The notes under the pieces are model-generated. The model made no database searches and was not told the origin of the DNA. It saw only the letters and a program-made list of their open reading frames with translations. Below are positions 2,507 through 44,432 of a stretch of 64,000 nucleotides of DNA, piece by piece. Each line of letters opens with the position of its first letter. Within the stretch, counting starts at the first letter, position 1. The stretch is from Astropecten irregularis (lineage: Eukaryota > Echinodermata > Asteroidea > Paxillosida > Astropectinidae). The stretch lies in NCBI GenBank assembly GCA_963971285.1, contig OZ020244.1, forward strand, positions 16,182,001 through 16,246,000. The letters run 5' to 3'. Made by a program: the position numbers and the translations under genes.

Positions 2507-2532
2507 TTTCTGGATTTCTCCATGTATTTCAG
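2507..2532 (+). promoter_or_regulatory. Probable splice acceptor before the LRR-Ig start
   Basis: A pyrimidine-rich run (tttctggatttctcc) followed by tgtatttcag ends immediately before the ATG at 2533. This suggests the 5' untranslated exon lies upstream and the first coding exon begins at the start codon itself. The upstream exon was not identified. Confidence 0.55.
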
Positions 2533-16098: not shown

Positions 16099-16311
16099 TA
16101 GTTATACGTAAATCAGTGAAAATCTGTCAGTTCCGTGACACCATTTTTTTCTGAGCTACCAGGCGATTTTACCCCATAATTTCCCTCCAAAATCAAAGCC
16201 CTGCTCTCTTTTTACAAATTTGACTTATTTAGGGTGAGTTAATTTACTGAAGAAGCTATTTTTATCTGAAAAATAATCCTAATGTCCAGGAACCCCATTA
16301 CATCCGTTCAC

Positions 16312-19058: not shown

Positions 19059-19062
19059 AATG

Positions 19063-19970: not shown

Positions 19971-19983
19971 TTAGCCCCCTCCT
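19971..19983 (-). promoter_or_regulatory. Polypurine tract
   Basis: On the minus strand AGGAGGGGGCTAA immediately precedes the 3' LTR start. This is the normal location and composition for plus-strand priming in LTR elements. Confidence 0.75.
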
Positions 19984-20039
19984 AGATGGTGAGGACATAC
20001 AAAAAAGGATGAACCATCGATGGTTGGATAGCCGGAAAT

Positions 20040-23003: not shown

Positions 23004-23326
23004 GTACGTCTGAGGCCAATGTCGAATGTCACAGATCGTTGACCGTAAGTGGGTATGCTTGTACCGTTGGCAGCCTGCAGAGTGAAGGAGGACGGGTGTT
23101 TCCGGTCGACTGAGCTGGGTGGGCAGATGCTGACAGCTGCCCCCGTGTCTACCAGGAATTTCCGTCTATTGTGAGGATCATAGATGAAGAACAGGCGGCC
23201 AGGTTTGGTACCAGGAGGAAGTGCCGCAGCTATCCCCTGGTGGACTCGTTTCCCGGCTGAGCGGCATAGGAGCATGGTGGAACACATTTGAGGGCCTCGG
23301 CACCATAGCGGTGGTGATACCAACAC
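22910..23326 (-). pseudogene. Gypsy aspartic protease, shifted frame
   Basis: The frame encodes the retropepsin core: [10 protein letters not shown], with the catalytic DTG near 23148, and [11 protein letters not shown] downstream. It continues for about 70 out-of-frame codons past the true junction. The RT frame picks up near 22905, which implies a one-base indel. Upstream it is also one frame away from Gag; that shift could be programmed or a lesion. Confidence 0.8.
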
Positions 23327-24082
23327 TCGGTCGAAGATGCAGCAGCAGCAGCAGGAGGGGTCGGTGCACGGTCTTTGTTGGTCGGGCGTGGACGACTACG
23401 GCTTTGGCTGCGAGCTCTTGACAGGCGTTTGAGTTGGGCCTGCATGGAGTTGACCTGCGTTGCTAGGTGGGCAAGTTGGTCGCGAAGTGCCTCGAGATCG
23501 CTAGATGGAGGTGGAGTAGCGCTGGTTGGGGTCACCGCGTTGATAGCCGGAGGCACGTAGACTTCCAGGATGCGGTCTGCAAGGGAGGCTAACTGGTCCA
23601 GGGGGACCGTGTCACGGGAGGAGGCAAGCACAAGTTGAGCGTTTGCGGGAAGGCGTTGGAGAAATAACTGCTTGAAGATCCCCTATTCTAGCTTCCTTTC
23701 GCCCAGGAGTTGACGCATACGGCGCAGCAACTGTGAGGGCTTCCTATCCCCGAGCTCCTCCTCGGTGAGTAGCAGCTGAAGGCGCTTCTGCTCAGAGGCA
23801 GAAGTGCTTCCTTAAGCTTCTGGTAGGGGTTTTCTGCAGGGGGCTGATGACCAAATCCCGTACCTCCTGGATGATCTCAGGCTGGACTGAAGCAAGGATA
23901 TGGGAGAACTTTGTGTCCTCACGATGGATGCCTCGAGTGTGGAATTGAGCCTCTGCTTGGGCGAACCAAATCAAGGGGTCGGCTGGCCAAAAAGGTGGCA
24001 GTTTGAGGGAGAGAGCCCCTATCTGTGGCTTGTCTGCAAGATTTGGAGCAGCCGCAGCCGCCGGAACGGCAGCTTGTTCCAT
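23230..24082 (-). pseudogene. Gypsy gag, disrupted
   Basis: Gag starts at 24082 with an Ala-rich N-terminus and the word KLPPFWPADPLIWFAQAEAQF, typical of Gypsy capsids. The frame is lost twice between about 23850 and 23805 (one near a C run, one near 'cttctgcctctg'). A TAG stop then interrupts it at 23683-23685 before the last stretch, which carries the CHCC box (CWYH...C...C, about 23284-23332). These lesions make the copy non-autonomous. Confidence 0.85.
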
Positions 24083-24184
24083 TGTGAATGATCACAGATG
24101 ACAGGGACAATGCTGGCAACTGTAGAAATGGCCGCGAAATGTGACCGTGAAGCTCAAAATGTCGGCGAAATACGGCGCAAAAGT

Positions 24185-24202
24185 TCAATGTCTGGGTCAC
24201 CA
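24185..24202 (-). promoter_or_regulatory. Primer-binding site, tRNA-Trp type
   Basis: Two bases inside the 5' LTR the minus strand reads TGGTGACCCAGACATT. From memory the tRNA-Trp complement is TGGTGACCCCGACGT, so the match is good with two differences. CsRn1-type elements are known to use tRNA-Trp. Confidence 0.75.
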
Positions 24203-24204
24203 AT

Positions 24205-24695
24205 TGTGGGAGAATGAAGGAGTGATAAGATGGATAATCAATGTTTGTTAATGTCAACACTCACCCACTTAAATATCCTGGTATTGAACGGCAATACGAA
24301 CGGGTGATCCGCTATTAGCGAGTGGTAGTCGATCCATACAGTGCGTACACATACGCACAGCGTTCAATGGGGCGAACTCAGTTACGACGGTCTGCTGGGG
24401 CGAATTGCCCGACCACACACGTGCGTGGGTTCGAGACCGAGAATTCCTCTTTACTTAAGAGTCAGTTAATAATTAACCGTCACTGCACGGTTCACGATAA
24501 ACACGAAGATAAAACAATTCTCCTCAAATGGGAAGAGTAACAAATTATGCGCGAAAACTCGCGAAAAGGTTGAAAGTTGATGAACAAAACTCCGTAGCAA
24601 CCGTGTGCAACAAAACAATATGGCGGAAGGGAAGTCATTAACATATTGAGTTTCGTGCTGCTTTGCGTGACCTTTGTAGGTCAAGGGTCACTACA
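24205..24695 (-). repeat. 5' LTR, 491 bp
   Basis: Uninterrupted LTR with TG...CA ends. It differs from the other LTR by only about seven changes, so the insertion is fairly young on the neutral clock. Confidence 0.95.
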
Positions 24696-24699
24696 AATG

Positions 24700-25675
24700 C
24701 TTTATGAAATAAAAATGTTTGTTTTTGTGTATATTTCAGTGAGTAGTGCGAGGTACATATAAACCAGCGTCTGTTGCGATTGCCATAATATGTTTGAAGA
24801 GGATTTCGGTTAACAAATAATTTGATGTAAAGGCTAACGTTATGAACTTGGGTACGTAGGCCTATTGTGACAATGACTAACTTATGCTTCCTGAGTAATG
24901 TCTTGTTATGTTGTTGTGGTTCAGTGTATATGAACATGGTCATGCTATAGCTATGGTCAGTTTGGATTATTGCCTATGTGGGATCTTGTATAGTTTTGCC
25001 TCAATTGGAATCTATCCATCCATGGGGGGTCTAGCCATTCATTTATGTCATAAATTAAACATGGATGATAACAATTAACGTTAATTCAATAATTATTTTA
25101 TTAATTAATGTTCAGTATAATCATTGTCATGGAGAAATGACTCCTCATTAATTTAGGACGTCTACATATTTACTTATTTTTCCTTTTTTTTTACATAAAC
25201 ATTATATCCTTCATACCTGTACATTATTGTGCTGTAGCACACTTTTTGACTGTTGGGTTTATAACCAGTGGCTACTTATCTCACTTGTGTTTGAATCATA
25301 TTCAACATTTTATGTAAATTGAAGGATTTTTAGTCAATGGTTTATATTTCTGTTATTGATTTGTTTGATTGAGTCTGTCAATGCTAATATTCTTAATAAG
25401 ATAATTATGAAAATCATGATGAATTCTTGTACTTTTTTGCACTTGTCCAGTACACAAAAGTTATTCTTTTTGTTCTGATTATGTATTGGTGTTTTGAAGT
25501 AAAATCTGCATTTTATACTATACTTGGACATTTATGTCACTTGTGTATGTCACTTGAACAGCATTTCAGTATAGAGGAAATCAAACAGTGTCTTTGTACA
25601 GTAACTTGTTAACAAAAATTATGAAAAACCTTGAACAAGGTAGTATATGAATATGATTTGAAATAAACAACTACG
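24700..25675. other. Non-coding AT-rich stretch
   Basis: No supported gene or RNA. It may include the 5' untranslated part of the following Helentron, but no terminus could be recognised. Confidence 0.4.
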
Positions 25676-25679
25676 CAAG

Positions 25680-25862
25680 GCCTCTGAAGTTGACGGGAAT
25701 TGCTCAAGTCAAGAAGACCAAAGAAACCTGATTGAAGGAGGACTTGAACCTGCAACCTCCCGGTTACTGAACCAGCACTCGACTGACCTGCATTTTCCAG
25801 CCCTACATTTGGCAGTGTCCTAAATTGTACTTTTTTGGTTTTCAGTCAGAAGCTATGAAAGC
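25680..25862 (-). mobile_element. tRNA-derived SINE
   Basis: Reverse complement has GGTTCAAGTCC (B-box match) preceded by 'agtcgagtgctggttcagta', giving tRNA-like spacing. It shares 'cagccctaca', 'gtgtcctaaat' and 'cagtcagaagctatgaaa' with the SINE at 2100-2290. Confidence 0.65.
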
Positions 25863-26245
25863 AGACATTACTGTATGCTGCTATATCCGAAGGATCAATT
25901 TAATAATTGTAGCAACAAAACTTCAGGAATCTCCCGAAGGGGTCTGGCTTATTTTGTATCAAAACACTTTCAAATAAACCAGAACGGGAACTGACATTAA
26001 TTGATATTCAGAAAACCGAAAACACTGATTGAAGTCATTTAAAACAGAAGAACAAATCACTGACTGAAGCAGTTGAACCTGAAAAACATGAATGATTAAA
26101 AATAATATAAAAGACAACCCTCAATGAATGGGCCATCTTGCTACAGTGTAAGTAGTGTGGGTAAGAAAAACATCCCTTTAATGTGTTGTCTGTCTATTGA
26201 TGTTAAATGTTTGTGTTTTTCTTTTTGATTTGTTTTCAGGACAAA

Positions 26246-28737
26246 ATGCCAAAGTACCAACGAGCCAAGACGATGAAGGATGGGATGGGGATCTGGAGGA
26301 TGAGGAAGCCAGTTCGTGGAGCGTCTGTTTTCTCTCACACTTACATGTTTGTTGCTGACTTCTCTAGCCTTTCTTTTCTCAGCTCTTGTGTTTCTCACTC
26401 TATTTCTGTCTATTCCTCTTTCCTTTCCTTTCCCACTCAAGTCCACACTGGGCTTGTGACTCAAGCACTCTTGCTTGAGGACGTTGTTGAGAACCAGGCA
26501 CCAGTGCATGCTATCAGCAACAGCCATAAAGAGAAGTTGAATAATAAGAAGTTGAATAATAGTCATGGTTTAAAAAGCTATCGTCATGGTTTAAAGAGTT
26601 TTTGTCATGGTTATAAGAAATATGTTGAAAGAATGAGTTACATGGAACGTGAGATAACCCATGAGACGAACGGTGAGGTGAAGTTTGAGACGAGTCATAA
26701 GACATGCCATGAGGAAGGATGTAAGAGTCATGAAAGCAGTCGTGAGGTAAGCAGTCATGAGGTAAGCGGTCATGAGGTAAGCAGTCATGAGGTAAGCAGT
26801 CATGAGGTAAGCAGTCATGGGGTAAGCAGTCATGAGGTAAGCAGTCATGAGGTAAGCAGTCATGAGGTAAGCAATCATGAGGTAAGCAATCATGAGGTAA
26901 GCAGCTGTGGAATGATGCATATGATGGGCTGTGAGAAGAGATGTAAGTTAAGGTTTAGAAGAAGTCATGATAAGAGTCATATGAGAAGATTCAGGAGAGG
27001 TCAGGATAAGTGTAAGAAACTGGTGAGAGGTGTATTCACAATACCATTGAAGCAGAAGTGTCCTCGTACATTGAAGAGACAAGTGATAGCAACATGTACA
27101 TGTTCATATAGTTGGAAGTGCCGTCAACATAGAAATCGAAAGACTCGAACGTGCCAAACAACTGGATACACGGTTCCAAAGCGAGTAAGAATGACAAGAA
27201 AGGCCAGGAAACATGTAATGTATAATTACAGAAGAAATGGGAAATCAATTGAGCAGCGTATGTCAAAGGAGGACATGCAAATACATGAAGAATTAAGGAA
27301 ATCTACATGTTGTCATACAAGAAGATGTATTAGCAAAGTCATCCATATGAGACAGACTGTAAACAGAAAGAGAGGACGGGGCAATGTCTGTGAAATTTCC
27401 AAAGGAGGCAACAAGAGAATTAAGACCTGTGAAGTGACAAAAGAGAAAGTCAAGGAACTGCAAACAGAAAATGATAATGCAAATGTGTGTTGGCTTTGTG
27501 ATAAAAGTGATGGGTGTGGCAAAAGGACGATACAATGTGATAAATGTTGTGTGTGGTTTCATACTATTTGCACTGGTATTTTGGATGTAAACGAACACTT
27601 GATTGGTAAGACATTCACTTGGGTTTGTTGTAAATGTGGACATAGTAATTACTGTGACGCTTTGTTTCATAATTTTGGTATTTGTACAGATGAGAATCAG
27701 TTTGACATGCCGTACAGTGCAGTTGACCAGTACTCAGGTGGACCTCTTGATCAAATGTCTGACAAGGAGAACAGAAGACACAATACACCAAGGACAGGAA
27801 ATGGGTATGTTAAACGAAGTACTGGTGAACGGTCAATAAGACAACAGAGTGGTGGTTACTTCTTAAGAAAGAGAAAATCAAATTCATCTCCTAATAATTC
27901 AAGTCAAGATGAGAAACCTACTACTAATCAAACACAGCCTAGAGAGTCTCCCAAAAAGTGTGCAAGACGTCGCAATAACAAATCCCTTCCCCACACTAAT
28001 GACACTAGCAAATCAGAAAAAATGCAATCTAATGATGTGGTAAAGCCTTCTAAGATACAGTGTTGTCAGACAGTGAATAGTAGACAAGTTGATCAATCTA
28101 TTGTTGCACAAGGCAGCTGTCATCAAGGAGATATACGGTTTGGAAGAAATATTGAAAAGCAATGTGTAGCCATGTCCTTGAGTGCAATTATGAAAAGCCA
28201 GACCAAATGTATGAATAATTGGGGAAGGAATGACATGGACAATGTGCTTAACACTGGCAATGAACTGTATGGATTTTTGCAGCAAAGTTCAACAATGAAT
28301 AATGATTATCTGCTTATTAATGAATTACCAACTGATTTGAATGTATATAAAAACAACTTTAGCATGATTTATGCGGAACCTGTAGTAGGAACATTCAATG
28401 AACAGGATTCAACTTTGGCAGAGGTCAACATGATTTCACTGAAACCAGCTATAGAACAATCAATTCAGAAATATGAAGCTTGTTTCATATGTTTTCATGG
28501 AAACACTTTTGCAGTGATTTTTCAAGATGGAATTTATTATGTATTTGATTCACATTCCAGAAATGTTCATGGCCAGCAAGTTCAAGATAGGACAAGCATT
28601 TTGCTCCGTTCATCAACATGGCAAGGTGTGTACAGGTATTGTACTGAACTTGGACATTCTATGAATCTGTCTGATAGTGAGCAATTTAAATTTACAGGTG
28701 TTAATATTTGCATTAGCCATGACAACAGTATATGTGT
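26246..28737 (+). CDS. Helentron ORF: PHD finger plus C76-like protease domain
   Basis: The frame is open from 26207; I prefer the ATG at 26246 because tttgttttcag lies just before it and may be an intron acceptor. Features in order: an imperfect SSHEV pentapeptide array (26735-26905), a long basic, cysteine-rich region without known domain, a C4HC3 PHD finger (27484-27645, CWLCDKSD...CDKCCVWFHTIC...CCKC), a low-complexity basic stretch, then a domain (28105-28700) with HQGDIRFG, KQCVAMSLSAI and VFDSHSRN. The Cys and the DSH pair match the layout of the C76/UL36-type deubiquitinase fold, also seen in several animal transposons. This assignment is by motif only. Frame is lost near 28735, where the OTU frame continues. 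Confidence 0.75.
26735..26905 (+). repeat. 15-bp tandem repeat encoding SSHEV
   Basis: About a dozen units of 'gaggtaagcagtcat' in phase with the reading frame, so each adds one SSHEV pentapeptide. Every unit contains GAG|GTAAGC, a strong splice-donor consensus. The opposite strand is also open over the array, but only because the unit length is a multiple of three. Confidence 0.9.
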
Positions 28738-29703
28738 AGTGATGAACACATTGACAGTTCTAACAGTGCTTGCACCAGTAGTTGTACACACGGTGTAGAA
28801 ACTCATTGTTTAAATGAGACAGTGGGAACGAATAATGCCGTAAACAATAAAGGAAATGATGGGGTTGAAGAAGAAACTGCACACAGTGTTTTGTTTGATG
28901 ATGTAAATGCCACTGGTTTTGATCAGGAATTAAGTAATGGTGACAAGAGTGATAATGATTTAGAAATAATACAAGTTACTGAACCAGTTGCTTTGAACTT
29001 TTTGCCACTAGCTAAAGAAAGGAAGATTACATTGTGTCAAAAATTTGGTGTGAGCAAAGTATGTTTGAATACTGATGAGATTTCCACAAGATGTGAGAAC
29101 ATGGGAAGACCTGACACTGTAAGGAAGATTAGAGGTGATGGGAACTGTTTCTTTAGAGCCATTTCTTGTGCTATATCAGGAACTGAAGAAAATCGTAGAC
29201 ATGTTAGAACTCTTACTATTAACCATTTGCTGAAGTATGCTGAAAAATTTAGGTGTTTTTTAAGAGAAGGTTTTTGTACAGTGGAAGATTATGTGGTTAG
29301 GCAGAGGTTGTTTCATAATGGTACATGGGCCACAGAGGTAGAAATCATAGCAATGGTTGACATGTTGGGTGTTGATTTATACACGTATAGTGAGGCAAAT
29401 AAGTGGTATTTGTTTTCTCGTTCATTCAGCAATACCGAGAGATTGTCAGATTGTGGAATTTATTTGTATCATAAAAATGAAGTTCACTATGATTTAGTTG
29501 TGAATGTTCATGAACTTGTTTCAAGTTATCCAGGTGATGTAGAAAGCTGTTGTAACAGAGATTTGTTGTCTGAAGGTACTTGTATGGACTCACTCAGTAA
29601 TGTTCATGTAAATCAAAGTAACAATAGATGTGAAGATATGGAAACGCATTCTCAGCCTAAGAGAAAGAGACGTAAACGTGTTAATGTGGCATTGAAACGG
29701 AAA
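28738..29703 (+). CDS. Helentron OTU cysteine protease segment
   Basis: The open frame carries an OTU fold. Catalytic loop DGNCFFRAIS lies at about 29134-29163 and the C-terminal histidine in NEVHYDLVV at about 29485. OTU enzymes cleave ubiquitin or ubiquitin-like chains, and an OTU domain N-terminal to Rep is a recurrent Helentron feature. The segment follows the C76-like domain after a frameshift near 28735. It ends at an in-frame TAA (29704-29706), beyond which the same frame stays open in lysine-rich sequence, so the stop is a lesion and not the true end. Confidence 0.85.
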
Positions 29704-29706
29704 TAA

Positions 29707-30420
29707 AAGAGAGATAAAGAAAGAGAAACATACAATAAAACAAGAAATACAAACATTGTTGATGAGAAAAGTGCATACAAGGAAAAGAAAAATTATGCTA
29801 AAAGACAGAAATATGCTAATTGTAAAGAGTTCAGAGTAAGTGTACTTGAATACGACAGGAACAAATATGCAGAAAATGGTGTTCAAAAAAGGAAATTGTT
29901 AAAGGAGAAGTATCACAAAGATAGTGTGTATAGAGAAAGAAAGCTTAACCATGACAAAACTAAGTATCGCAAAGATAGTGTACGCAGAGAAACTAAGATT
30001 AACACAGAAAAAAAAAGTATAAAAAGGATAGAGTACACAGAGAAAGAAAAATTAAGAGTGGAAAAAAGAAGTATGGCGAAGATAGTGTACACAGAGAAAG
30101 AAAACTTAATTGTGATAAAACTAAGTATCACAAAGAAAGTGTACATAGACAAAGAAAAGTTGATAGAGAAAAAAAGAAGGATCGCAAGGATAGTGTCCAT
30201 AGGCAAGAAAAATTCAATCATACCAAAGCCAGGTATTATGAAGATGCTGTATATAGGCAGAAAACAATTAACCGTGCAAAAACCTCATCAACAACAAAAT
30301 ATCATAGTAATCAAGTATACAGAAATGCTGTGATTAACTCCATAAAGAAAAGGTATTGGAGTAATCATGTATATAAAGCAAATTTGATAAAAAAAATTGA
30401 AATGCAAGTAACGCCAAGAT
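29707..30420 (+). pseudogene. Helentron charged repeat region (KYxxDSVHREKKLN type)
   Basis: About 12 imperfect 14-15-residue repeats of the form K-Y-x-x-D-S-V-x-R-E-x-K are spread over two frames. The frame changes at a run of nine adenines (30008-30016), after which the shifted frame reads the same kind of repeat. A second frame change lies near 30415. Such Lys/Arg/Asp/Tyr repeats often precede the Rep domain in animal Helitrons; their role is unknown. Confidence 0.7.
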
Positions 30421-30859
30421 GCAAATTATCGTAAGAAAATAAAGCAGAGGGTTTTAAGAGAAAGACGTATAAAATCTCAACAAGCAAGGAACATGAGGAA
30501 TGTTATCAGAAATTGGAGGAATGAAGTGTCAACTGGACCTGAGTATGTTTGTGCAGTTTGTTGCAAACTTTTGTTTAAGAAACAAGTTATTAGATGCAAT
30601 AAAGAAATATACAGCAAGATAAGTTGTATATCTGACAAATATTTACATAAATGTCTATGTACAAAACAGTGTGGAAATTAATGTCTTGTATCAAAATCTA
30701 GCAGGTCTAGATTATGGATATGTTACACATGTCATAGGACATTACTACAGAAAAAAGTACCTGTAGAAGCATGTACCAATAATTTGGAATTGCTAGACAT
30801 TCCACAAGAATTGGATTGTTTGAATATATTAGAGGAACATCTCATTGCAATTAATATAC
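30421..30859 (+). pseudogene. Helentron zinc-finger region before Rep
   Basis: Reads through EYVCAVCCKLLFKK, then CLCTKQC and WICYTCHRTL, a set of CxxC pairs typical of the region N-terminal to Helitron Rep. A TAA stop at 30679-30681 interrupts it. The downstream LEEHLIAINI word is cut by the solo LTR, and its continuation starts immediately after the LTR. Confidence 0.75.
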
Positions 30860-32418
30860 TGTTGCGTACCTGACCATCGAGGTTTGACTAAACTACAGAC
30901 ACGCAAATAATATATGTAATACGGAAGACAGTAACTTCGTGACAAAATATGACTGAGTTGGTTTATTAACATTCTCTATCTGTAATCACAGAACATGACA
31001 AATATAAGCACATGGACAGAGTATACGGGATTGTATACGGTGAAATCTTAAACAGTTTACACTGGAGAGCCGGTAAATCTCAGCATAGCTAACCCAACGT
31101 AACGCATCTCAGATAGCCGCACATACATTCGGGTACACGTGGTACGTACTTGGCATGGTACGGGGATACCAATAACCCAGAACGCAGGGAAGTATATGGG
31201 GGTATACTTTACAACATGCAAGCCAATGCTAACGATCGGAGGCACAACACAGCATTGCTTGTAGACCAATAGACACGACGAGGCACTGTTCTTTTGGAAT
31301 AACGTACGGTACGGGTATTGCTAGCTTTGATCGGAACCGGTGCTCATCAGCGAATGAACATCGAGTCTTAGGATCAGCTCGACATAGGGTGCATTCGTTT
31401 AGCTTTCCCGGGTCAGCCCTTACTGGGAATGGTCGTGCTATACTGCACAAAACAAGCGAGAGAATGGGGACGAGGTTGACTGGTGTCGACCCGGGGGAGC
31501 TAAACGAATGCACCCTTATATCGAGAATCCTGGACCTAAGAATGAATAAAACATAAGGAAGAATATACACCTTAGCCAATGGGAAAGCAGCAAGGTGAAG
31601 TATCCATAGCCTAAGGCGGTAGGAACGTTTGCAAAAGCATGGCGGGACGTGTGCAAAAGCATGGCGGGATGTGTGCAAACGTATGCATAAGCATGTACGG
31701 ACAGTGTGCAAAGGATGGCGGGACAGGTGCAAACGTGTGTCGCGGGATATGTGCAAAAGCAGGTCACACAACAACTTCTATCTCCTTATTTGGCACAACT
31801 TCGCGCTAGAAGCTCTGATTGACAACTAGGTATACGGGGCGTGTTCAGGAGACAAGTAGCATTCGATGTACACATAATCTGGCTCTGTGTACAAAGCATT
31901 GCAGGGGCTTGCGTGCAGGCATGCAGCATCAAGGGTGGTCAACGAGAGTGCACTGGGGAACTTAGCAGGTCAGACACGGTGACTGTAGGCGGTCGCCTAT
32001 CGGAGCCTTCACGGCCAACCACTTCGGGAGCGAAGTGGTGAACTCCGAGAGAAATGTGAGCAAAATAGACTAAGTCCCAGAGAGCACTTTCGTCGTGGAG
32101 CTAGGGGGAGGGGCTCTGCGTGATCGCTCGCTGTGGCTCTGAATTATGCATAACGCAGCATCAGCTTCTGGGGCATATTGCATATATGCAAGATATGGCG
32201 CAATCTCGGACGATCGTGTCACGCGGCATTGCAAGAGTCTTGAGGGCCAGAAATAGCTTAGCTTAGCAATTACACTGATCAGTTCTTGGTCAATACATAT
32301 AGTCAATAGCATAAAATAGATAATCAATGGGAAATGATCACGTGTACAGCAAGGACACAATTCTAGAGGGCGCTAGTGCTTCGGTGTTCCGAAATCGGTC
32401 CAGGCAAGGTTCGCAACA
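30860..32418 (-). mobile_element. Solo LTR, 1559 bp, inserted in the Helentron
   Basis: Bounded by TGTTGCGTACC and GGTTCGCAACA (TG...CA, short imperfect inverted ends) and by a 4-bp duplication ATAC (30856-30859 and 32419-32422). Taking it out with one ATAC restores the flanking reading frame. In the minus orientation there is a TATAAG word near 31520 and an AATAAA signal near 30967, as expected for promoter and polyadenylation parts of an LTR. It contains 'gcgggacgtgtgcaaa' tandem words near 31630-31760 and no coding sequence. Its parent family was not found in the window. Confidence 0.85.
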
Positions 32419-33506
32419 ATACCATTCATGAAAATGGTAGCATTGCCGAAAGGTGGACAGAATTCTGTACATGGTCCTGTTGTATGTGTACCATCTAACA
32501 TTACAGATACAGTGACAGCATTGCCAAGATGCAGAAATGAAAATCAGTTAATTCGAATCAAGTTAAAGAGAAAATTAACTTACAAAGGATATTATCAATA
32601 TCAATTTGTGACCAAGGAACATGTGGAAACTGCATTAAGCTATCTTAAGCTGAACAATGCATTTTATAAAGATATTGAAATCAATTGTGATTGGAATGAT
32701 CCCCTGTTAGATGAGGAACATGATGAGGAACATGAAGATGAAATGGCAAATGAATCTGATGAATCAAATGTAAGTGATGAAGAAACAGATGAGGATCGTT
32801 TGTGTGGTATTCCACTTGATACATATGCTTACAGCCTATAGATATTGGACAAGAAGTGCTTGATCAATACTTTGATGATGTATTTTGTGTTGCACCTTGT
32901 GAAGGAAACAATCCAGTTAGAGTGTTAATGGAGAAAGGTAATGAGGCCAAATGTTTTCCAGCATTATTCCCTGAAGGCTCACCTATATTTGATGATAAAC
33001 GTGATGGAAAGCTGACGCGCCTCAGATATTTTCATAATAGGTTGATGAATGCAGGTAACAGATTTGCCAAATGTACTCAGTATATCTTTTATGCCCAGTG
33101 TTTATCAGAAATTGAAAAGGTGATGTCTGGTGTATCAATTGCTATGCGTCAAAGTTCAGGCAAAATGCATTGTAGTCAGAATGTTAATTCTGGCATGATT
33201 AAGAATAGAGATCATTTAAATGATATTTTACAGTCTGATAGTGGGTATACATTTTTAAAACCAATAAGAGGTACACCGTCATATTGGCAATCAACTCAGA
33301 GAGATGTCATGGCTATAATTAGACAACTTGGAATACCAACATGGTTTTGCTCATTTTCTGCAGCTGATATGAGATGGCCTGAAGTTATTAATACAATATT
33401 GAGACAACAAGGGGATTCCAGGAAAATTGAAGATTTGGATTGGAATGATAAGTGTACAGTATTGAGAAGCAATCCAGTGACTGTTGCTAGAATGTTTGAG
33501 AATTGA
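32419..33506 (+). pseudogene. Helentron Rep N-terminal region
   Basis: Begins in frame with the pre-LTR sequence (PFMKMVALPKGGQN word) and covers the Helitron-like N domain, with [11 protein letters not shown] and [14 protein letters not shown] as family-typical words. Frame changes near 32835, and a TGA (33504-33506) stands where related elements usually have arginine, consistent with a CGA to TGA transition. Confidence 0.85.
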
Positions 33507-34186
33507 TTTCATACATTTTTGAAAGATGTTATAATGTCTAGTGCAGAACCCATTGGGAGAGTCAAGGACTATTTTTACCGAGTAGAATTTCAGCAAAGAG
33601 GATCTCCACACACACATTGTTTGTTTTGGATTGAGAATGCTCCCAAATTGGAAACAGATGATGATGCTGATGTAATAAAATTCATTGACAAATATATCAG
33701 TTGCAAGTTACCAACTCAGGAAGAAGATGAGGAATTGAATGAAATAATCAGTCATGTACAGCAGCATAGTAGGAAACATACCAAGTCTTGTAAGAAGAAG
33801 GGTTCTGAATGTAGATTTAATTTTCCAAGACCCCCATCTAATAGAACATTTATTGCCAGTTGTGATCCAGCTGATGAATGTAATGATAAAGATAGTGATG
33901 ATGATGGATATAATCATGAAGAAAGTACACCCAATTAGTAATAATGAAGAGAAACGTACAGCAGCCAAGGAATTATTGCAATCAGTATGGAATGCAATCC
34001 AAGATGAGAAGAATCAACACATGTCAACATCTGAATTATTTCAAAGCATTAATATTACACAGACTGATTTTGAGAAGGCCAATGATGTTTTGAGCAGGAA
34101 ACCTACTATTGTTTTAAAGAGAGAGCCTCAAGATGTATGGGTGAATCTGTATAATCCTGATTTAATAAGAGCCTGCATGGAATGCT
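33507..34186 (+). pseudogene. Helentron Rep HUH nuclease core
   Basis: Contains [15 protein letters not shown] with the metal-binding His-x-His pair at 33609-33617, the hallmark of HUH replication initiators. Frame shifts occur near 33915 and again near 34155, after which the last frame begins at 34190. Confidence 0.88.
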
Positions 34187-34189
34187 AAC

Positions 34190-35932
34190 ATGGATATTCA
34201 ATACATCAGTGATGCATATGCCTGTGCAGCTTATGTAGTATCGTACATGTCAAAGTCAGAACGAGAATTGGGACAGTTATTAGGACGTGCACAGAGCGAG
34301 GCCAAAAAGGGGAATTTAGATGCTAGACAGAGTATGAAGGAAATTGGATGTGTGTATTTACACAATAGAGAATTATCAGCTCGAGAAGCAGTGTTTCGTG
34401 TTTGTGGTCTGAGGTTGAAAGAGGGTTCTAGAAAAGTGGAGTTTATACCTGTAGGTGAAAATCCTGTACGAATGAGTTTGCCATTGAGTGTAATTCAGAG
34501 CAAATGTGAAGATGAGGATGATATTTTCATGACTAACAAAGTTGAGCGTTATAAAGCAAGGCCGGATAGTGATGAATTTAATGGCGTGTGTCTGGCAAAA
34601 TTTTGCTCAGAGTACAGAATTATTTATAATGGAGATACATGTAATATATCAAGACATTCACCAGCGTATGCATTGAAACATGGTCTGGGTCACATACAGA
34701 AACGTACAAGAACTGAACCAGCAGTCATAAGATACCCAAGGTTTTCACTGACTAAATATCCAGAGAAATATTACCACAGTATATTACAATTGTTTCTTCC
34801 ATATCGTGTTGATGCTCAACTGAAGCCACCACAGTTTGATAATTATGAACAGTTTTATAAGAATGGTTCAGTTTGTCTAAATAACCAAATGAAATCTGTA
34901 AGTGTTGTTGTTGAAAGTAATCGGTCTAAATATGAGAAGAATGCTGAGGCTCTTGAAGCAGCTAAACAATATGTAGAAAAACATGGTATGCAGGAAGGTG
35001 CATGGGCTTTGATTTCCCCAATATCTGAGCAGGAAAGACTTGAATTTGAAGCAGAACGTGAGCCAGTATTACCAGAAGATGATGATTTGGATATTCCTGA
35101 CCTACAATCTGACAAGAAAGACAAAGTGTGTAATATTGAGCCACATTCATTGAAAATATCAAAGCAAGATGCACTAAGTTTACTGAGGTCATTGAATGCA
35201 CAGCAAAGAGAAGTGTTTAATAAGATTCGAGACTGGTGTTTACAGAAGGTACAAGGCAAAAACCCTGAACCATTTCATGTATTTATCACTGGTGGAGCTG
35301 GAACTGGGAAAAGTCATTTGGTTAAATCAATACATTATGAAGCAACAAGAATTTTCACAAGAATGGTTCATAATCCTGATAATGTGTCTGTAATGGTAAC
35401 TGCACCTACTGGAGTTGCAGCTTTTAATATCAATGGAAGCACAATTCACAGTGCGTTGTCAATCCCTACTGATGCACGTTTGCCATATCAACCTCTAGGT
35501 GAGGAAAAATTTAATACTTTGAGGAATGAATTGCAAGATCTTCAAATTGTTATTATTGATGAAATATCAATGGTTGATCATAAAATGATGTGTTACATTC
35601 ATGGACGTCTGCGTCAGATTAAGCAAACACGTGACCTCAAACCATTTGGTAAAGTGAGCATTTTAGCTGTTGGTGATTTTTATCAATTGCCTCCAGTCAA
35701 AGGGAAATCATTGTATCAGAGATATATTACAGTAGATCTGTGGAATGATTGTTTTAAGAAAGTAGAGTTGAGAGAAATTATGAGACAAAAGGATGATATG
35801 CAATTTGCTGAAACTTTGAATCGAATACGTGTCAGAGCTAAGCAGGATAAGTTATTGGATGAAGATGCAGCAATGTTACAATCACTGGAAACTGGAGAAG
35901 AGTGGGATGATGCGTTACATATATTTCCATGA
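34190..35932 (+). CDS. Helentron Rep C-terminus and PIF1-type helicase
   Basis: This 580-codon frame starts inside Rep with DAYACAAYVVSYMSKSE, where the paired tyrosines (about 34231 and 34243) are candidates for the nucleophiles that nick and join DNA. After a linker it enters an SF1B helicase with Walker A GGAGTGKSH (35291-35317), Walker B VIIDEISMVDH (about 35545-35580) and motif III AVGDFYQLPP (about 35667). The helicase would unwind the displaced strand during rolling-circle transposition. It stops at TGA (35930-35932), but the same frame continues with helicase sequence, so the stop is a lesion. Confidence 0.9.
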   Translation: MDIQYISDAYACAAYVVSYMSKSERELGQLLGRAQSEAKKGNLDARQSMKEIGCVYLHNRELSAREAVFRVCGLRLKEGSRKVEFIPVGENPVRMSLPLSVIQSKCEDEDDIFMTNKVERYKARPDSDEFNGVCLAKFCSEYRIIYNGDTCNISRHSPAYALKHGLGHIQKRTRTEPAVIRYPRFSLTKYPEKYYHSILQLFLPYRVDAQLKPPQFDNYEQFYKNGSVCLNNQMKSVSVVVESNRSKYEKNAEALEAAKQYVEKHGMQEGAWALISPISEQERLEFEAEREPVLPEDDDLDIPDLQSDKKDKVCNIEPHSLKISKQDALSLLRSLNAQQREVFNKIRDWCLQKVQGKNPEPFHVFITGGAGTGKSHLVKSIHYEATRIFTRMVHNPDNVSVMVTAPTGVAAFNINGSTIHSALSIPTDARLPYQPLGEEKFNTLRNELQDLQIVIIDEISMVDHKMMCYIHGRLRQIKQTRDLKPFGKVSILAVGDFYQLPPVKGKSLYQRYITVDLWNDCFKKVELREIMRQKDDMQFAETLNRIRVRAKQDKLLDEDAAMLQSLETGEEWDDALHIFP

Positions 35933-36610
35933 AATAAACAGGTTGATGAATACAATAGAAAGATACTGTTTGCAAAGTGCACTGATTATTTCTGTATTTT
36001 AGCAAATGATTTTCAGAAAGATTCCAGTAAAAAGACAAGCCAAGTGAAAATACCGAAGAAATCAATGCAGACTACTTTGCCTGAAGCATTATGGCTAGGT
36101 ACTGGTGCTAGAGTAATGCTGTCTAAACATATTGATGTTTCTGATGGACTTGTTAATGGAGTACTTGGAACTGTTTGTGAAATCATTCTGTCACATGATG
36201 AATCTACCCCTGAATATATTCATATTGTATTTGATAGCGAAAGTGTTGTATCCAAAGTGAAAAGGAAAAGTGCAACAAATGATGGATTTATTAGAATTGA
36301 AAGGGAAGAAGAACATATAAGCAAACAGTGGATAAGGCGACAATTTCCATTGAAATTAGCTTGGGCCTGTACAGTTCATAAAGTACAAGGAGTGACTACA
36401 GACAGAGCAGTGGTATGTCTTGAACGGACATTTTCAGCAGGTCAAGCATATGTTGCATTAAGCAGAGTAACATCTCTAAATGGACTTGTGATTGAAGGGT
36501 TTAATGAAAAGTTTCTTTATTGCAATAAAATGGTGAAGGATTCTTTGAATAATATGATGCAATTTATTGAAGAACCTGATGTAAGAACACTACCATCAAA
36601 TGATGCATAA
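35933..36610 (+). CDS. Helentron helicase C-terminal part
   Basis: In frame with the preceding segment after the TGA. It carries ARVMLSKHIDVSDGLVNG, WACTVHKVQGVT and GQAYVALSRVTS, the conserved motifs IV-VI of PIF1-like helicases. An ATG at 36044 could not restore the activity because Walker A and B lie before the stop. Confidence 0.85.
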   Translation, partial: NKQVDEYNRKILFAKCTDYFCILANDFQKDSSKKTSQVKIPKKSMQTTLPEALWLGTGARVMLSKHIDVSDGLVNGVLGTVCEIILSHDESTPEYIHIVFDSESVVSKVKRKSATNDGFIRIEREEEHISKQWIRRQFPLKLAWACTVHKVQGVTTDRAVVCLERTFSAGQAYVALSRVTSLNGLVIEGFNEKFLYCNKMVKDSLNNMMQFIEEPDVRTLPSNDA

Positions 36611-37244
36611 TATCCAAGGATTGAAAGAACACTTTAAAGACTTGGAATGTAATATTGATATGATGTCAGCAGATTTCATTTGTCTGACGGAAACATGGAG
36701 TGAGAATGAGTTTGACTGTGAGACAGAATTAAATGATTTCAAATGCTATCATAACATCAGAGGTGCTTCATATAATAATTCATGCAGTGTTACTCACATG
36801 TAAAGCAAACAATGTCATGGAGGTGTTGCTGTGTATGGTAGAAGGAACAAGACATTCAGTAGACTGATCTTACCTGTACACAACTTGGAGTATATTGCAA
36901 TACAAGTTATTTGTGAAATGTCATATTCTTTGGTAACAATTTATCGTCCAGCATCATATTCCATGATTGAGTTTATTGCCAATGTGAAAGATGTACTTAA
37001 TGAACTTCATAAAGTATCTAACAGATGTATTGTAATGGGTGATTTTAATGAAGATATTTTGAAACAGCATTCACAGATTGAGAAAATAATGTGTGAGCAT
37101 GGATATAAACAATGTGTGACAGATGCAACAACAGAGAATGGGACATTGATTGATCATGTATATGTAAGAAATATAGAATCAGTATGTGCAACTGTAATTC
37201 CTACTTATTACAGTTATCATGAAGGTGTATGTATCAATATGTGA
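36600..37244 (+). pseudogene. Helentron EEP (apurinic-like) endonuclease
   Basis: Reads HNIQGL, FICLTETW, VMGDFNED and LIDHVYV, the conserved blocks of the exonuclease-endonuclease-phosphatase fold. In the last block, where related enzymes have S-D-H, this copy has S-Y-H, which would remove the catalytic aspartate. The frame is interrupted by a stop near 36801 and is offset from the helicase. The domain at the C-terminus of Rep-helicase is the feature that separates Helentrons from canonical Helitrons. Confidence 0.82.
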
Positions 37245-37250
37245 AATTTT

Positions 37251-38740
37251 GTATAAGTTGTTGTACACATCAATTAATTATTATCTGACGATGGAAATAT
37301 CATGTACATGACCTTCTTGGCATTTATCACAAATGTGACATGCATTCTGATGAGTTAGATTTGAGTTGAACATGCAATTTAAGAAAGACATGATTTACTG
37401 TTTCTTTTAAAGATATACATGATTACAGGTATTTACAAATGCCTGAATGAAATGAGGATAATTGTTAGCATAATGAATGTAATTTAAAAGGAATGTGCAC
37501 AATATGATCAGTAGTTTCTTGTGTCGTTTTTATTGCCATTGTCATTTTAATTTATTGATTGTGTGAATCAAGTATTAGCATGCTTTACCGTTACTATAGT
37601 CTGGTGTGCGAAATGGTGGTCGTTTCAAAAAGAGAGTAGATGCATGTTTCAACTGTAACCAAATGTTTCCTGCATACTTCTATACAGAATGCATATACCG
37701 AGTTCCAGCAAGCAGTAGACTAGCTACCAGTCCTTACGTTGTTGTCGTTGTGTTTCACTTGTTTGAATCGAGTCCTTGACGTATATATACCAAACAACAT
37801 ACATGTACTTATATATGATCCCAAACCCAGGAACGGTGCGGTATTGCCATAGCTATAGGGTACATTGAAAGTTATCAGAGACATAGAGCACACCAGTGGT
37901 ATGACGTCACCTGATACACAACAACATAACTGGGTCTTGACCAATGAGATTCAAGTATATGAATTCGAGTCGTAACAATCGTTTTCTGTCTTGAACCGAT
38001 AAACTACTTTTCTGCCTGAGTTACTCTCTTGGAATATGATAATACACATTGTAAATATCATGCAAATAGATATGGAAAGGCTGGTTAAAACAACATCAGT
38101 ATACCTCGTAATGGAGCACTGTGGTCTTCTATCACAATCAAAATGCTAAACAGTACCACTGGCAAGGACTTTATTGTCCCTTTGTAAAACCATTGTTCTC
38201 CCATTTTAATGGCAATATAGATCGTGATCAATTAAATGAAGTCGGCACGATCGTGTGTAACTCATATTCAGTTTCTGTGTTTATTCAATATACATGTAGC
38301 TCCTGTGTGTGTGCGCATTATGCTTCATAAGCCAATCAACAAATTGAGGTTTTGTGCACAATGGCTTCGTGTTGAGGGAGACGTGTTTCGAATTAAGTAA
38401 CAAGCTATAGACAATGGATCCATCTTTTACAAAACAGCATCGGATTCGTGTAAGCCACGATGACGCCACCATCGTCAGGTTAAATTGCGCTTAATGTCGC
38501 CAATAATAAAAAAAAAAATACAGCCCCATTGTATATTATGAGAAAGTTCTTATATGCCCTATAAACGAGGATTTCTATTTGTTTCATTTTTTGAACAATC
38601 GTTATACTCCATCTTTAAGTTCGCCTATCTGAAACCAAAATCTGAATTGGGTCGACCTACCGTCGCTCCTAATCTTCGGCGCGACGCTGCAACGCCTGTC
38701 TGAAACAGAGGTTAGAAACTAAAAAAAAAAAACGAAGGAT
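37251..38740. other. Non-coding stretch, possible Helentron 3' region
   Basis: No gene, RNA or clear repeat is recognised. Somewhere here the Helentron should end with a short hairpin, but I could not place it with confidence. Confidence 0.4.
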
Positions 38741-38744
38741 GGGT

Positions 38745-39030
38745 GGTAAGTTACCCAAACAGAAGTGTTCACAGATTTACGTATAACTTTCAGGGTATGA
38801 AGATGGTGCTGGTAGAAACACCGTTAAAATAGTTTCTCCTGAAATGGTGTAATTATCCAGAGATTAGTCAAACAAAGACCGCAAAACAGTTTTGATCTCG
38901 GGGTAAGATAAAAACTTAATTATTGTTACTCAGATGTCCGATTGAACTCAAATTGTCACAGGTTTATTATTTCATGCACATATTGGATCAGAGAAAGTAT
39001 GAGTGCTGTTCTGTGACCTTTACAAATCAT
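38745..39030. repeat. M2 interspersed element next to the P450 exon
   Basis: Carries 'aagatggtgctggtagaaac', 'gttttgatctcggggtaaga' and 'gatcagagaaagtatgagtg'. It ends about 35 bases before the P450 exon acceptor. Confidence 0.55.
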
Positions 39031-39065
39031 GGTAGTTCCATTTCAAATCATCATTATTTTGTCAG

Positions 39066-39330
39066 GTATTGTGCGTTCGTCCGGGCCGGTTTTGGTGGAG
39101 ACACGCCGATTTGCAATGACCGTACTAAGAGGCCTTGGAGTTGGCAAGTCAAGCTTCGAGCAGAATATCTCCACGGAAGCAGAATGCCTGGTGGAGGAAC
39201 TGAAGGGATATAAGGGCAGTGCGTTTGATCCCTAACACATATTTGGCAATGCCGTGTCTAATATCATTTGCTCGGTGGTGTTCGGCAAACGGTTCAATTA
39301 CAGCGATGTCGCCTTCAAACGTCTTTAGTT
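39066..39330 (+). pseudogene. P450 exon, C-helix to F-helix region
   Basis: Acceptor ttttgtcag precedes the exon. It encodes GIVRSSGPV, TRRFAMTVLRGLGVGKSS and AECLVEEL, then after an in-frame TAA (39233-39235) GNAVSNIICSVVFGKRF. The C-helix WxxxR tryptophan is not seen, with VLVETRRF in its place. The giant inverted repeat begins at the exon's right edge. Confidence 0.85.
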
Positions 39331-42300
39331 GGAGAGCTAGCTGGGTTTTAATCATAATGTTGAGTACAAAAGGTTTGAGTGCATATTTCTATTGGATTTA
39401 ATGTACGAATGAGAGAATGGGGCGTCTTAAGTTGCACACCCCTGGGCTTTGGGCCCCCTGGGGCACCAAAGTTGCCCCAAATATCGATTTATTCAAACTT
39501 TTGAGTACAACCAAAATTCCTTTTGCAAATGATCATTTAGTGACCCCTGACAACAAATCCACAATTTAAGACATGATTTTTCCTGGGGTTTGTAGATAAG
39601 ACGGGGGTGTTTGTAGATAATATGGGGGTTTTGTACATAAGGCATGGGGTGTTTGGACCCATTGGGTCCTTCAAAATTGAACTTATAAAAAAAAGTCTGT
39701 ACATCAATTTTGATTACAGCTATGGATAAAACATAACTCTAGATAAATAAAAATGCAATTTAAGACATACAAATGTTTCGGGTTTCTAATTAAGACCATA
39801 ACTAATTAACGGCCAATTAGCGATTTTTTCACACTTTTGAGTACAACCAAAATTCCTTTTGCAAATGATCATTTAGTGACCTCTGACAACAAATACACAA
39901 TTTAAGACACGATTTTTCCTGGGGTTTGTAGATAAGATGGGGGTGTTTGTAGATAATAATGAGGTGTTTGTACATAAGATGGGGTGTTTGGACCCAGGGT
40001 ATATTAGGACCTTAAAATTGAAGAGTCTAAACATCAATTTCGATTACAGCTATGGATAAAACATAACTCCACATGAATAAAAATGTAAGTTGAGACATAC
40101 AAATGTTTGGGGTTTCTAATTAAGATCATCACTAATTAATGGCAAATTAGCGATTTATTCACACTTTTGTGTACAACCATGATTCCTTTTGCAAATGATT
40201 ATTTAGTGACCTCTGACAACAAATCCACAATTTAAGACATGATTTTTCCTGGGGATTGTAGATAAGACACCATATAAAAGTTGCATCACAGCACTGATTT
40301 ACTCACAATATGGGTAATTATGTATGTATACACATGCAACGCATTGAACGCAAACGGTAATTTGATGGTATTTCGGGAATATGCCGCGAAATGATAAGTG
40401 CCACGCAAGAGAAAATGGTCCAGTCTTTACCCGCACAAAATAATCTTTGATAAGTTGTGCTATTTATTCCCCCTCTAAAAAAAAAAGACGGAAAGTGGAA
40501 ACTTGTGTCTGAGACTGAAGACCGCTGGATAACGATTCTCAAATCTGCGATGCCGCCCTGAAACAAACTATGAAGTATGAAATATCCAAGTACCGTCCCG
40601 TGATCGAATATGGAGGTTCAAAAGTGGACATCTACTTTTCTATCTCCAAGAGGGACTTTTCTCCTCTCAAATTTGGAATGGAGCAGGTATTTCATCATTA
40701 AAGCTGCTGGATAATTTGCAGAACAAAGCACTTAACATTTTCAGGATTGATGAGCCTCTCAAGTTTGGCATTGTTCCACTGAGTTACAGGAGAAATGTTT
40801 CATTACTTTGTGTTTTTTACCGTCATTTCTTCCTGAAACCATCCATTGAGCTAGCTGATATTTTACCCCCTTGTGCACCTAGTCTGAGAGCGATACAGTG
40901 ATCTTCACTGACTAGACATCTATACTGTGTACGTATTCCTAGATCAAAAACAGAGCTCCATCTCAACTCCTACATACCAAGGACAAGTCGAATGTGGAAT
41001 GTCTGCTTTTCCTGCCTCTGCAGATGTGTCTGCCTTTAAGACAAAAGTGAATGCTTTCCTCATCGGTCAGATGTTTTAAACCATTTTTTTATCTCTTCAG
41101 TTCTATTTTAGCTGTTTATCTGGTGGTCTTGGATTAGTTAGGGTAGCTTAATGGCTGCCTATAGGAGATTGTGACCTGCGAATTTGACAGCCTACGGGGC
41201 CTAGTCAGGTTGCGTTTTTTATTTTTCCTGGTAGGGCGTAGTGATATAGGCTTACCAACACCATGACCACCGAATGAATCATGTTCTTTTTATGCTGTTC
41301 TTTTGCTCCACTTTTCAGATTTGTATTGCAACTTGCTTCAAGCATTATGCTTTGGGCCACTTTTCATCTTTAGTGATGTTTTCATCAGGTCCCAGAATCC
41401 AAGTAAAAGAAAAACAAAGTAGCAAAAACACAGATCGAACGCTTTTGCAAAATGCGCTTTTCTGTACCTTTCTGTTAACAGAAAAAGCAGATGACACGTT
41501 TTGGTAAAATGCAGTTTTCTGCTTTTAGCTACCAGAAAAGTAAGTGTTATTTTTCATCCGAAACTGGCGGTACAAAAGTAGACATCTGCATTTTCACTTT
41601 TCTCACTACCAGTACCAATAAAGCAGATAGGACGTTTTTGATAAATCCACTTTTTTTTTGTCTGCTTTCCAATAAAGCAGATTGAACGCTTGTGCAGTGG
41701 TTCAAAAGTGGCCATCTGCTTTTTCTGCTAGCAGAATCGTAGAAATGAACGTTTTGGATAGATCCACTTTTCTGCTTCTTCCAACAGGACAAAATGTAGG
41801 TTCGTTCACAACTTTTAATCATTCTCACACAGGAAATACAGATAAGCTTCAGAACTTTAAAAGCGACGTTTGTTTTTGAATGGAAGTATTTTGGGGTTAT
41901 AATATGGAAGGCAGAAACTTCTCAATTGGGCCCCTTCTAAGGGCCACTTTTAAACCACTGGCCCACAAGCGTTCAATCTGCTTACTTGAAAAGCAGAAAG
42001 GCAAAAAAAATAGATTTGCCAAAACGTGTCATCTGCTTTTCTGTTAACAGAAAGGTATTGAAAAGCGCATTTTGCAAAAGTGTTCGATTTCTTTTTATGC
42101 TACTTGGAGAGGAAAAAAGTAGATGTCCACTTTTGAACCTCCATATTCGATCACGGGACGGTACTTGGATACTTCATACTTCATAGTTTGTTTCAGGGCG
42201 GCGTCACAGATTTGAGAATTGTTATCCAGCGGTCTTCAGTCTCAGACGTCTTCAGAGTCTCAGAAAGTTTCCACTTTCCTTTTTTTTTTTGAGGGGGGGG

Positions 42301-43463
42301 GGGACAAATAGCACAACTTATCAAAGATTATTTTGTGCGGGTAAAGACTTGATCATTTTCTCTTGCGTGGCACTTATCATTTCGCGGCATTTTCCCGAAA
42401 TACCATCAAATTACCGTTTGCGTTCAATGCGTTGCATGTGTATACATACATAATTACCCACAATGGGAGTAAATCAGTGCTGTGATGCAACTTTTATATG
42501 GTGTCTTATCTACAATCCCCAGGAAAAATCATGTCTTAAATTGTGGATTTGTTGTCAGAGGTCACTAAATAATCATTTGCAAAAGGAAGTATGGTTGTAC
42601 ACAATAGTGTGAATAAATCGCTAATTTGCCATTAATTAGTGATGATCTTAATTAGAAACCCCAAACATTATTTTGTATGTCTTAAATAAATGTTTTTATT
42701 CATGTGGAGTTATGTTTTATCCATAGCTGTAATCGAAATTGATGTGCAGCCTCTTTTTTTATAAGTTCAATTTTAAGGTCCTAATATACCCTGGGTCCAA
42801 ACACCCCATCTTATATACAAACACCCCATTATTATCTACAAACACCCCCATCTTATCTACAAACCCCAGGAAAAATCATGTCTTAAATTGTGTATTTGTT
42901 GTCAGAGGTCACTAAATGATCATTTGCTAAATGAATTTTGGTTGTACTCAAAAGTGTGAATAAATCGCTAATTGGCCGTTAATTAGTTATGGTCTTAATT
43001 AGAAACCCCAGACATTTGTATGTCTTAAATTGCATTTTTATTCATCTAGAGTTATGTTTTATCCATAGCTGTAATCAAAATTGATGTACAGACTCTTTTT
43101 TATAAGTTTAATTTTGAAGGACCCAATGAGTCCAAACACCCCATGCCTTATGTACAAAACCCCCATATTATCTACAAACACCCCCGTCTTATCTACAAAC
43201 CCCAGGAAAAATCATGTCTTAAATTGTGGATTTGTTGTCAGGGGTCACTAAATGATCATTTGCAAAAGGAATTTTTGTTGTACTCAAAAGTTTGAATAAA
43301 TCGATATTTGGGGCAACTTTGGTGCCCCAGGGGGCCCAAAGCCCAGGGGTGTGCAACTTAAGACGCCCCATTCTCTCATTCGTACATTAAATCCAATAGA
43401 AATATGCACTCAAACCTTTTGTACTCAACATTATGATTAAAACCCAGCTAGCTCTCCAACTAC
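39331..43463. mobile_element. Giant inverted-repeat (fold-back) element
   Basis: The left end GTTGGAGAGCTAGCTGGG is mirrored exactly by the right end CCCAGCTAGCTCTCCAAC. The arms stay closely matched for about 1.5 kb; for example 'caaagttgccccaaatatcg' pairs with 'cgatatttggggcaactttg' and 'gtaccgtcccgtgatcgaat' with 'attcgatcacgggacggtac'. The centre lies near 41830. Each arm contains three ~340-bp direct repeats with 'gggtgtttgtagataa' words. TA dinucleotides flank it. No transposase is encoded. A LINE fragment interrupts the left arm. Confidence 0.9.
40656..41394 (+). mobile_element. LINE fragment nested in the left arm
   Basis: This block has no partner in the right arm. It encodes pieces of a LINE C-terminal tail: LQNKALNIFRIDEPLKFG, then LSYRRNVSLLCVFYRHFF, and IPRTSRMWN in another frame. 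The 6-bp word TCCAAG borders both sides (about 40650-40655 and 41395-41400), as expected for a target duplication. Confidence 0.7.
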
Positions 43464-44007: not shown

Positions 44008-44029
44008 GTAATTAAATGTTATAATTGAT

Positions 44030-44350
44030 AACAAACCAAAACAGAAATGTTAACAGATTTACGTATAACTTACAGAGTATAAAGACGTTAATGGTAGAAA
44101 CATACTGTGAAAATTATTTCTGCCTGAAATGCTGTATTTACCAACACCAAATTATCAAACCAAACACCAAAACATTTTTTATCTTGGCGAGTTAAAAAAT
44201 GAGACAGCTATTCCCACACAATTGGCATAAAAATTGGTTTTTCGTCTTTCCTTTTTTACTGTTTCCAATGATCAATTGAGCTGAAAATGTTACAGGTTTG
44301 TTTTTATTCCAAGACAAATCAAATTATGAGCAGCCTGCAGCTATTCCGTC
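44030..44350. repeat. Partial M1 and M2 sequences in the P450 intron
   Basis: 44030-44195 matches M1 interior words ('cagaaatgttaacagattta', 'tgcctgaaatgctgtattta'). 44280-44350 resembles the M2 tail ('gttacaggttt', 'ccgtcacctttac'). Confidence 0.5.
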
Positions 44351-44432
44351 ACCTTTACCAGTGTTGTACAATGTACATGCCCTATAAAGTTGGAACAATC
44401 TTTTCTTCATACATTTGTTTGTATAATCCGGC

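Follow-up and report, generated by a model that had tools for sequence, protein, structure and literature searches.

The window analysed here, 64,000 nucleotides of the sea star Astropecten irregularis (GCA_963971285.1, contig OZ020244.1, positions 16,182,001 to 16,246,000), contains at 26246-37244 the coding part of a Helentron, in which a PHD finger and two deubiquitinase domains, a VTD (C76-like) and an OTU, accompany the HUH Rep nuclease, the PIF1-type helicase and the C-terminal EEP endonuclease. The three accessory domains are parts of the element and not of a host gene, since 95 of the 102 genomic frames that run from Rep to EEP hold all of them. The window copy is probably the dead remnant of an autonomous Helentron whose intact relatives encode a single protein, roughly 3,200 residues long; its deubiquitinases would shield the transposition complex, and its PHD finger would tether it to histone tails and has probably been exchanged between lineages. 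The element itself holds up on good evidence and belongs for the most part to a known kind; its role at chromatin is put forward as a hypothesis.

The preliminary description of this DNA had assigned the PHD and C76-like parts to the element, and the refuting cases that it named, intact copies lacking them or an origin in a host gene, were not borne out. The 476-Mb genome was searched domain by domain and the resulting rows were joined by position. The VTD search gave 134 matches (139 of 139 candidates scored) and the PHD search 147 (150 of 169). For OTU, 150 of 177 candidates were scored and the 150 listed rows were used, so that there are at least 150 matches; Rep and EEP gave 150 matches each, with 150 of 160 and 150 of 288 candidates scored. 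Among the scored Rep matches, 102 of 150 had EEP in the same frame. In addition to the 95 complete frames, five of these had PHD, VTD and OTU within 12 kb, though not all in the same frame. Two copies weigh against a universal set: at C15:20599029 the frame contains VTD and OTU without a PHD match, and at C9:3360354 OTU is in frame, PHD lies in another frame and no VTD match was obtained. Both frames are shorter and apparently partly broken. Within 12 kb upstream of the 102 Rep rows, PHD was found in 101 cases, VTD in 101 and OTU in 102.

These counts were made without a length cut, because the cut of 2,900 aa applied in a parallel count favours long frames with extra domains and would miss shorter Helitrons devoid of them. 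With the cut, 95 of the 150 Rep rows lay in frames of 2,913-3,714 aa, all 95 of which held PHD, VTD and OTU, and 94 held EEP. Conversely, of the 134 VTD rows only four had no Rep within 9 kb downstream and four no PHD within 3 kb upstream. The general Pfam model Helitron_like_N, for which 150 of 154 candidates were scored, yielded 149 matches, all but one of which (148) lie no further than 1.2 kb from a Rep row. They represent 143 distinct loci, with PHD within 12 kb upstream in 134 and VTD in 130; the eight loci with neither domain are all in frames of at most 566 aa. Among the candidates scored, the search revealed no Helitron that is open from Rep to EEP and lacks both PHD and VTD. Broken copies with PHD and OTU and no VTD match were located at C9:3360354, C14:14082471 and C29:4543172, and in a decayed lineage at about C1:11.62 Mb, with identities of 46% in Rep and 37% in OTU, neither PHD nor VTD was matched.

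Substitution patterns were estimated from eight copies (28 pairs, pooled); as the copies are not independent, the dN/dS values are indications only. Values of 0.24 for VTD, 0.25 for OTU and 0.34 for PHD were obtained, next to 0.10 for Rep, 0.16 for the helicase, 0.19 for DUF6570 and 0.31 for EEP. Two linkers reached 0.49 and 0.97, the N-terminal repeats 0.63 and the charged repeats 0.55. There are thus indications of purifying selection on the three accessory domains.

The window copy was examined from 26207 to 37244, and its nine separate open pieces were put through a Pfam profile scan. Together with the alignment to sister copies, collinear over 18698-37421, the following layout was obtained.

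18698-19062, plus strand: 5' non-coding piece of the element, collinear with sister copies at 88-98% identity and severed from the remainder by the nested insert
19063-24695, minus strand: nested insert, not in sister copies (gap in the copy alignment)
24696-26245, plus strand: 5' non-coding part of the element; sister counterparts end in a splice-acceptor-like TTTTCAG site just 5' of the ATG
26246-27487, plus strand: N-terminal protein part with SSHEV repeats (15-base tandem repeat at 26734-26904)
about 27488-27637, plus strand: PHD finger, Cys4-His-Cys3 (PF00628, E 0.0012)
28115-28588, plus strand: VTD / C76-like (Herpes_teg_N) deubiquitinase domain with QC and FDSH (PF04843, E 5.5e-12)
29131-29475, plus strand: OTU deubiquitinase-like domain, DGNC ... 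NEVHYD (PF02338, E 4.3e-9)
about 29706-30434, plus strand: Lys/Arg/Glu-rich (charged) repeats with a unit of about 54 bases (frames and repeat analysis)
30860-32418, no strand assigned: second insert, not in sister copies, of unassigned type (gap in the copy alignment)
32419-32691, plus strand: DUF6570, fragment (PF20209, E 1.5e-12)
33030-33623, plus strand: Helitron_like_N / HUH Rep nuclease (HTHCLFW), stop inside (PF14214, E 2.4e-18 and 3.6e-10)
35192-36181, plus strand: PIF1-type helicase and 2B domain, stop inside (PF05970, E 1.4e-29 at 35192-35803; PF21530, E 6.5e-6)
about 36600-37211, plus strand: EEP (AP-type) endonuclease, one internal stop (genome EEP search row C1:16218600-16219211)
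37245-37421, plus strand: 3' flank to the end of collinear sister homology; sister copies continue as kilobases of non-coding repeats

The copy is decayed, with split frames, two inserts and truncated ends. Position 26246 is an ATG whose counterpart is preceded by the TTTTCAG site in six sister copies, and 37244 closes a stop codon located where the frame of intact copies ends as well. The last EEP piece scores under the Pfam cut-off (PF03372, E 4.2e-4). The nested insert includes a minus-strand, retrotransposon-like frame of 1041 aa (20040-23165), Ty3/gypsy-like by eye only; in its middle (20001-24000) the G+C content is raised to 0.54-0.55.

DNA probes for the helicase, C76 and PHD parts gave 40 scored matches each, of 146, 141 and 47 candidates, and the ten best helicase matches, which are not a random sample, were fetched. 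The frame from PHD to EEP is uninterrupted in eight of the ten (3,153-3,327 codons) and open from the ATG in seven; in c28_6.6 a stop within the N-terminal repeats closes it. Intact copies present a single frame of about 2,900-3,700 codons with PHD, VTD, OTU, charged repeats, DUF6570, HUH Rep, PIF1 and EEP. It had been stated earlier that one run of plus-strand frames holds these domains: all parts, their order and their strand were confirmed, while the frame of the window copy is split and the single frame is found in its sisters.

The coding content supports the assignment to the Helentrons, as had been proposed. Rep and helicase are in one protein in intact copies (split in the window copy), an EEP/AP-type endonuclease is fused C-terminally (Pfam E 8.7e-8 on L014), and the element is multicopy and dispersed, with at least 143 separate Rep loci spread over 25 contigs. 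At the ends, where a Helentron would show insertion in TT, subterminal inverted repeats and a 3' palindrome, a short palindrome was seen by eye in the 3' repeat units, and long repeats lie on both sides of the element. The profile searches suggested earlier for OTU, PHD and C76-type parts gave matches in the window as well as in intact copies.

The VTD of sister copy L013 found its best PDB match in 8ADD (E 7.6e-7), followed by the herpesvirus tegument proteins 6w2d and 6ppb. 8ADD is a solved zebrafish Helitron deubiquitinase (Erven et al. 2022, PMC9741609). Ten VTD sequences were compared, from the window, two sister copies and seven copies with PHDs of other groups, whose VTDs are 50-92% identical to that of the window, and the Cys, the Asp-x-His and the Glu of an ELP motif were invariant. 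By count along the alignment this Glu is E377 of 8ADD. Mutation of E377 greatly lowered the cleavage of chains and eliminated that of RLRGG-AMC (PMC9741609); D376, next to it, is not conserved. The OTU domain of L013 matches OTUD5 (3tmo, E 8.2e-13), and DGNC and the catalytic His are kept in ten sequences. Both domains look like active deubiquitinases. Two results are less favourable: single-sequence AlphaFold2 prediction of the window VTD reached a mean pLDDT of only 30.7, and the OTU of copy c30, where the motif is present, gave no Pfam match at E 0.05. When viral contigs were searched for VTD relatives, 23 stretches fitted a pattern and none was a relative by tblastn.

A profile built from the PHD of ten copies matched solved PHD fingers (56 distinct PDB sequences at E <= 0.01, best E 1.9e-6), with MLL1 PHD3 and BPTF on top, and the eight Cys4-His-Cys3 zinc ligands are invariant in the ten sequences. 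A PHD fold is thus supported, although the single-sequence scores, including that of the window, fall under the Pfam cut-off and L038 and L039 show C-x-C rather than C-x2-C at the second ligand pair. The nearest solved relatives presumably include readers of histone H3, and the domain may act as a chromatin reader. It was observed that the aromatic cage of H3K4me3 readers is matched only at the Trp before the ligand His in the alignment to BPTF, which speaks against such a function; the residues at the cage positions are mostly not aromatic, and the first of the four BPTF cage positions falls outside that alignment.

The PHD finger also differs between copies whose Rep is nearly identical. Among the 95 long frames, 57 have a Rep with 89% identity or more to the query; in 28 of these the PHD is at least 76% identical and in 29 at most 50%. 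In the other 38 (Rep <= 83%) the PHD is at most 50% identical throughout. Alignment showed one copy, L038, to be a PHD chimera. Bases 178-417, which hold its PHD, are 75% identical to L039 and found no match in four window-family copies, and bases 446-2601 match window-family copies at 79-90%; past its PHD, the protein continues with a second, window-type stretch, as it follows the PHD in the window family. Exchange in further copies is suggested by identity patterns, as for C27:3074101 and C16:9859004, which in the match lists combine a window-like VTD (95-96% at the DNA level) with a PHD of 41% identity. As L039 also has a divergent VTD (59% identity to the window), an exchange border there, if any, lies further on. 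The comparison covered seven copies of non-window PHD types, from PHD to OTU.

According to the reading that we favour, the C-terminal Rep, helicase and endonuclease would carry out rolling-circle transposition, as in the family at large. VTD and OTU would most likely remove ubiquitin from the protein of the element itself, or from chromatin and repair factors where the element leaves or inserts, which would spare the transposition complex from the proteasome, and the PHD finger would most likely anchor the protein on histone tails. The exchange of the PHD between lineages has one demonstrated chimera behind it and, for other copies, identity patterns. A bolder version, in which the PHD is an exchangeable targeting head that lineages swap by recombination while keeping their transposition machinery, so that the chromatin entered or evaded shifts fast and the two deubiquitinases guard the complex, is offered tentatively and we regard it as rather doubtful. 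The different PHDs at near-identical Rep could also reflect rapid diversification instead of exchange. The fast evolution of the PHD-VTD linker (the one with dN/dS 0.49) and the divergent VTD of L039, where no sharp PHD border is seen, would fit this, but the border in L038 would not, and diversification is considered unlikely. That the PHD, VTD and OTU are passengers, or a host gene hit by a Helentron insertion, is effectively excluded in this genome: only the two copies whose domain set is incomplete would favour it, against the co-occurrence in the Rep-to-EEP frames and the signs of purifying selection.

More weight, short of an even chance, was given to the possibility that the PHD is a structural or protein-binding zinc module and no histone reader, and that the deubiquitinases alone matter for the interaction with the host. 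The poor match to the BPTF cage, the varying ligand spacing and the weakest constraint among the three accessory domains agree with this. On the other hand, PHDs that share only 40-61% identity have retained all eight ligands and, in 8 of 10 sequences, the Trp, and the presumed kinship with histone H3 readers also points to a reader. Viral papain-like proteases are both polyprotein proteases and deubiquitinases, and the proteases could likewise serve mainly to process the giant protein itself. This appears improbable to us. All domains do share a single frame of some 3,200 codons, and the motif Q[STC]GGYxLR is kept in 9 of 10 sequences (L038-L044, c15_21.50, c30_8.22 and c1_11.2) within a PHD-VTD linker that is otherwise variable and poorly alignable; cleavage of Rep, helicase and endonuclease by OTU has also been suggested (PMC4067079). 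Yet the residues before GG (QQS/T) are unlike LRGG, L041 is without the motif, and zebrafish VTDs act on ubiquitin (PMC9741609). LRGG-like self-cleavage sites were rejected, as none of the six GG sites of c15_21.50 is preceded by LR. As the genome offers 95 uninterrupted multi-domain Helentron frames of several lineages and at least one natural PHD chimera, both the role of deubiquitinases for rolling-circle transposons and the question whether a histone-reader module steers insertion become testable.

The union of a C76-like domain with OTU had been thought not commonly described. This does not hold, and the combination was dismissed as a novelty: most non-viral VTDs are located in Helitrons of the Helentron subclass, 121 of which also hold OTU, and zebrafish VTDs have documented deubiquitinase activity and a crystal structure (PMC9741609). 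The zebrafish elements DrT2 (one active VTD and OTU) and DrT1 (two VTDs) are VTD-containing Helentrons of this kind. As in those elements, VTD and OTU lie here in the RepHel frame with a C-terminal AP endonuclease, and the VTD catalytic residues align with 8ADD; a difference is the PHD of the present element, a domain that does not occur in that main text, although figures or supplements may include an unlabelled zinc finger. The DINE-1/Helentron paper (PMC4067079), a review of giant transposons (PMC6431247) and a study of Fusarium Helitrons (PMC5148889) describe Rep, helicase and EEP together with OTU, and tandem clusters; PHD has no occurrence in their main texts and VTD none in the passages compared. 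The same set of papers reports a chromatin-type SET domain in a Phytophthora proto-Helentron.

Ginger1 DNA transposons (PMC2836005) have OTU or a Ulp1 isopeptidase, plus a PHD in Ginger1-9_HM, fused to the transposase, and the idea of joining a PHD and a ubiquitin-type protease to a transposase is therefore not new. In contrast to the present element, their transposase is Gypsy-integrase-like and not of the rolling-circle type, and each protein described there has OTU or Ulp1, never both. Herpesvirus large tegument proteins (C76 peptidases) share the VTD fold family, but stand in a viral tegument context and match more weakly than 8ADD. The Pleurotus Helitron HELPO1.3 (PMC4289320) also carries a tegument-type (UL36) domain, but in a separate captured gene, and PHD and OTU do not occur in the main text. 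The Helentron and OTU passages of a bivalve transposon survey (PMC10294476) contain nothing that bears on the union of PHD, VTD and OTU. Neither a PHD in a Helentron nor PHD exchange was found in the excerpts of the open-licence literature searched, which does not cover Repbase. We found no printed account of a frame that joins a PHD to two deubiquitinases, of a PHD that is nearly universal in open Helitron frames as it is here, or of its exchange.

The copies are clustered in the genome. Among the 143 loci, 39 adjacent pairs are less than 60 kb apart (34 of them co-oriented and 5 with opposite orientation), while 1,000 trials of random placement gave 2.6 such pairs on average and 9 at most. 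On C11 seven copies lie in one orientation within 180 kb, with repeats between the units in the stretch read. Tandem arrays of Helitrons are known and have been ascribed to missed termination (PMC4067079). The region C1 6-13.6 Mb contains 33 of the 143 loci, only 6 of them in frames that reach 2,900 aa; such frames were found at 9 of 37 loci on C1 as a whole and at 86 of 106 elsewhere. This may be a region of low recombination or a silenced one.

Beyond the collinear part of the window, shorter and weaker sister-copy matches were obtained at 38744-39053 and 44024-44670, within the flank repeats. A large inverted repeat occupies 39326-43462, with arms of 697 bases that are 98% complementary, 2743 bases between them and tandem units of 330-350 bases. 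At 2443-4797 a single-frame protein of 784 aa is encoded, which by eye has the look of a membrane protein with LRR and immunoglobulin parts and is possibly a host gene. Further tandem repeats were observed at 16307-17062 (23-base units) and 49344-49655 (units of about 53 bases).

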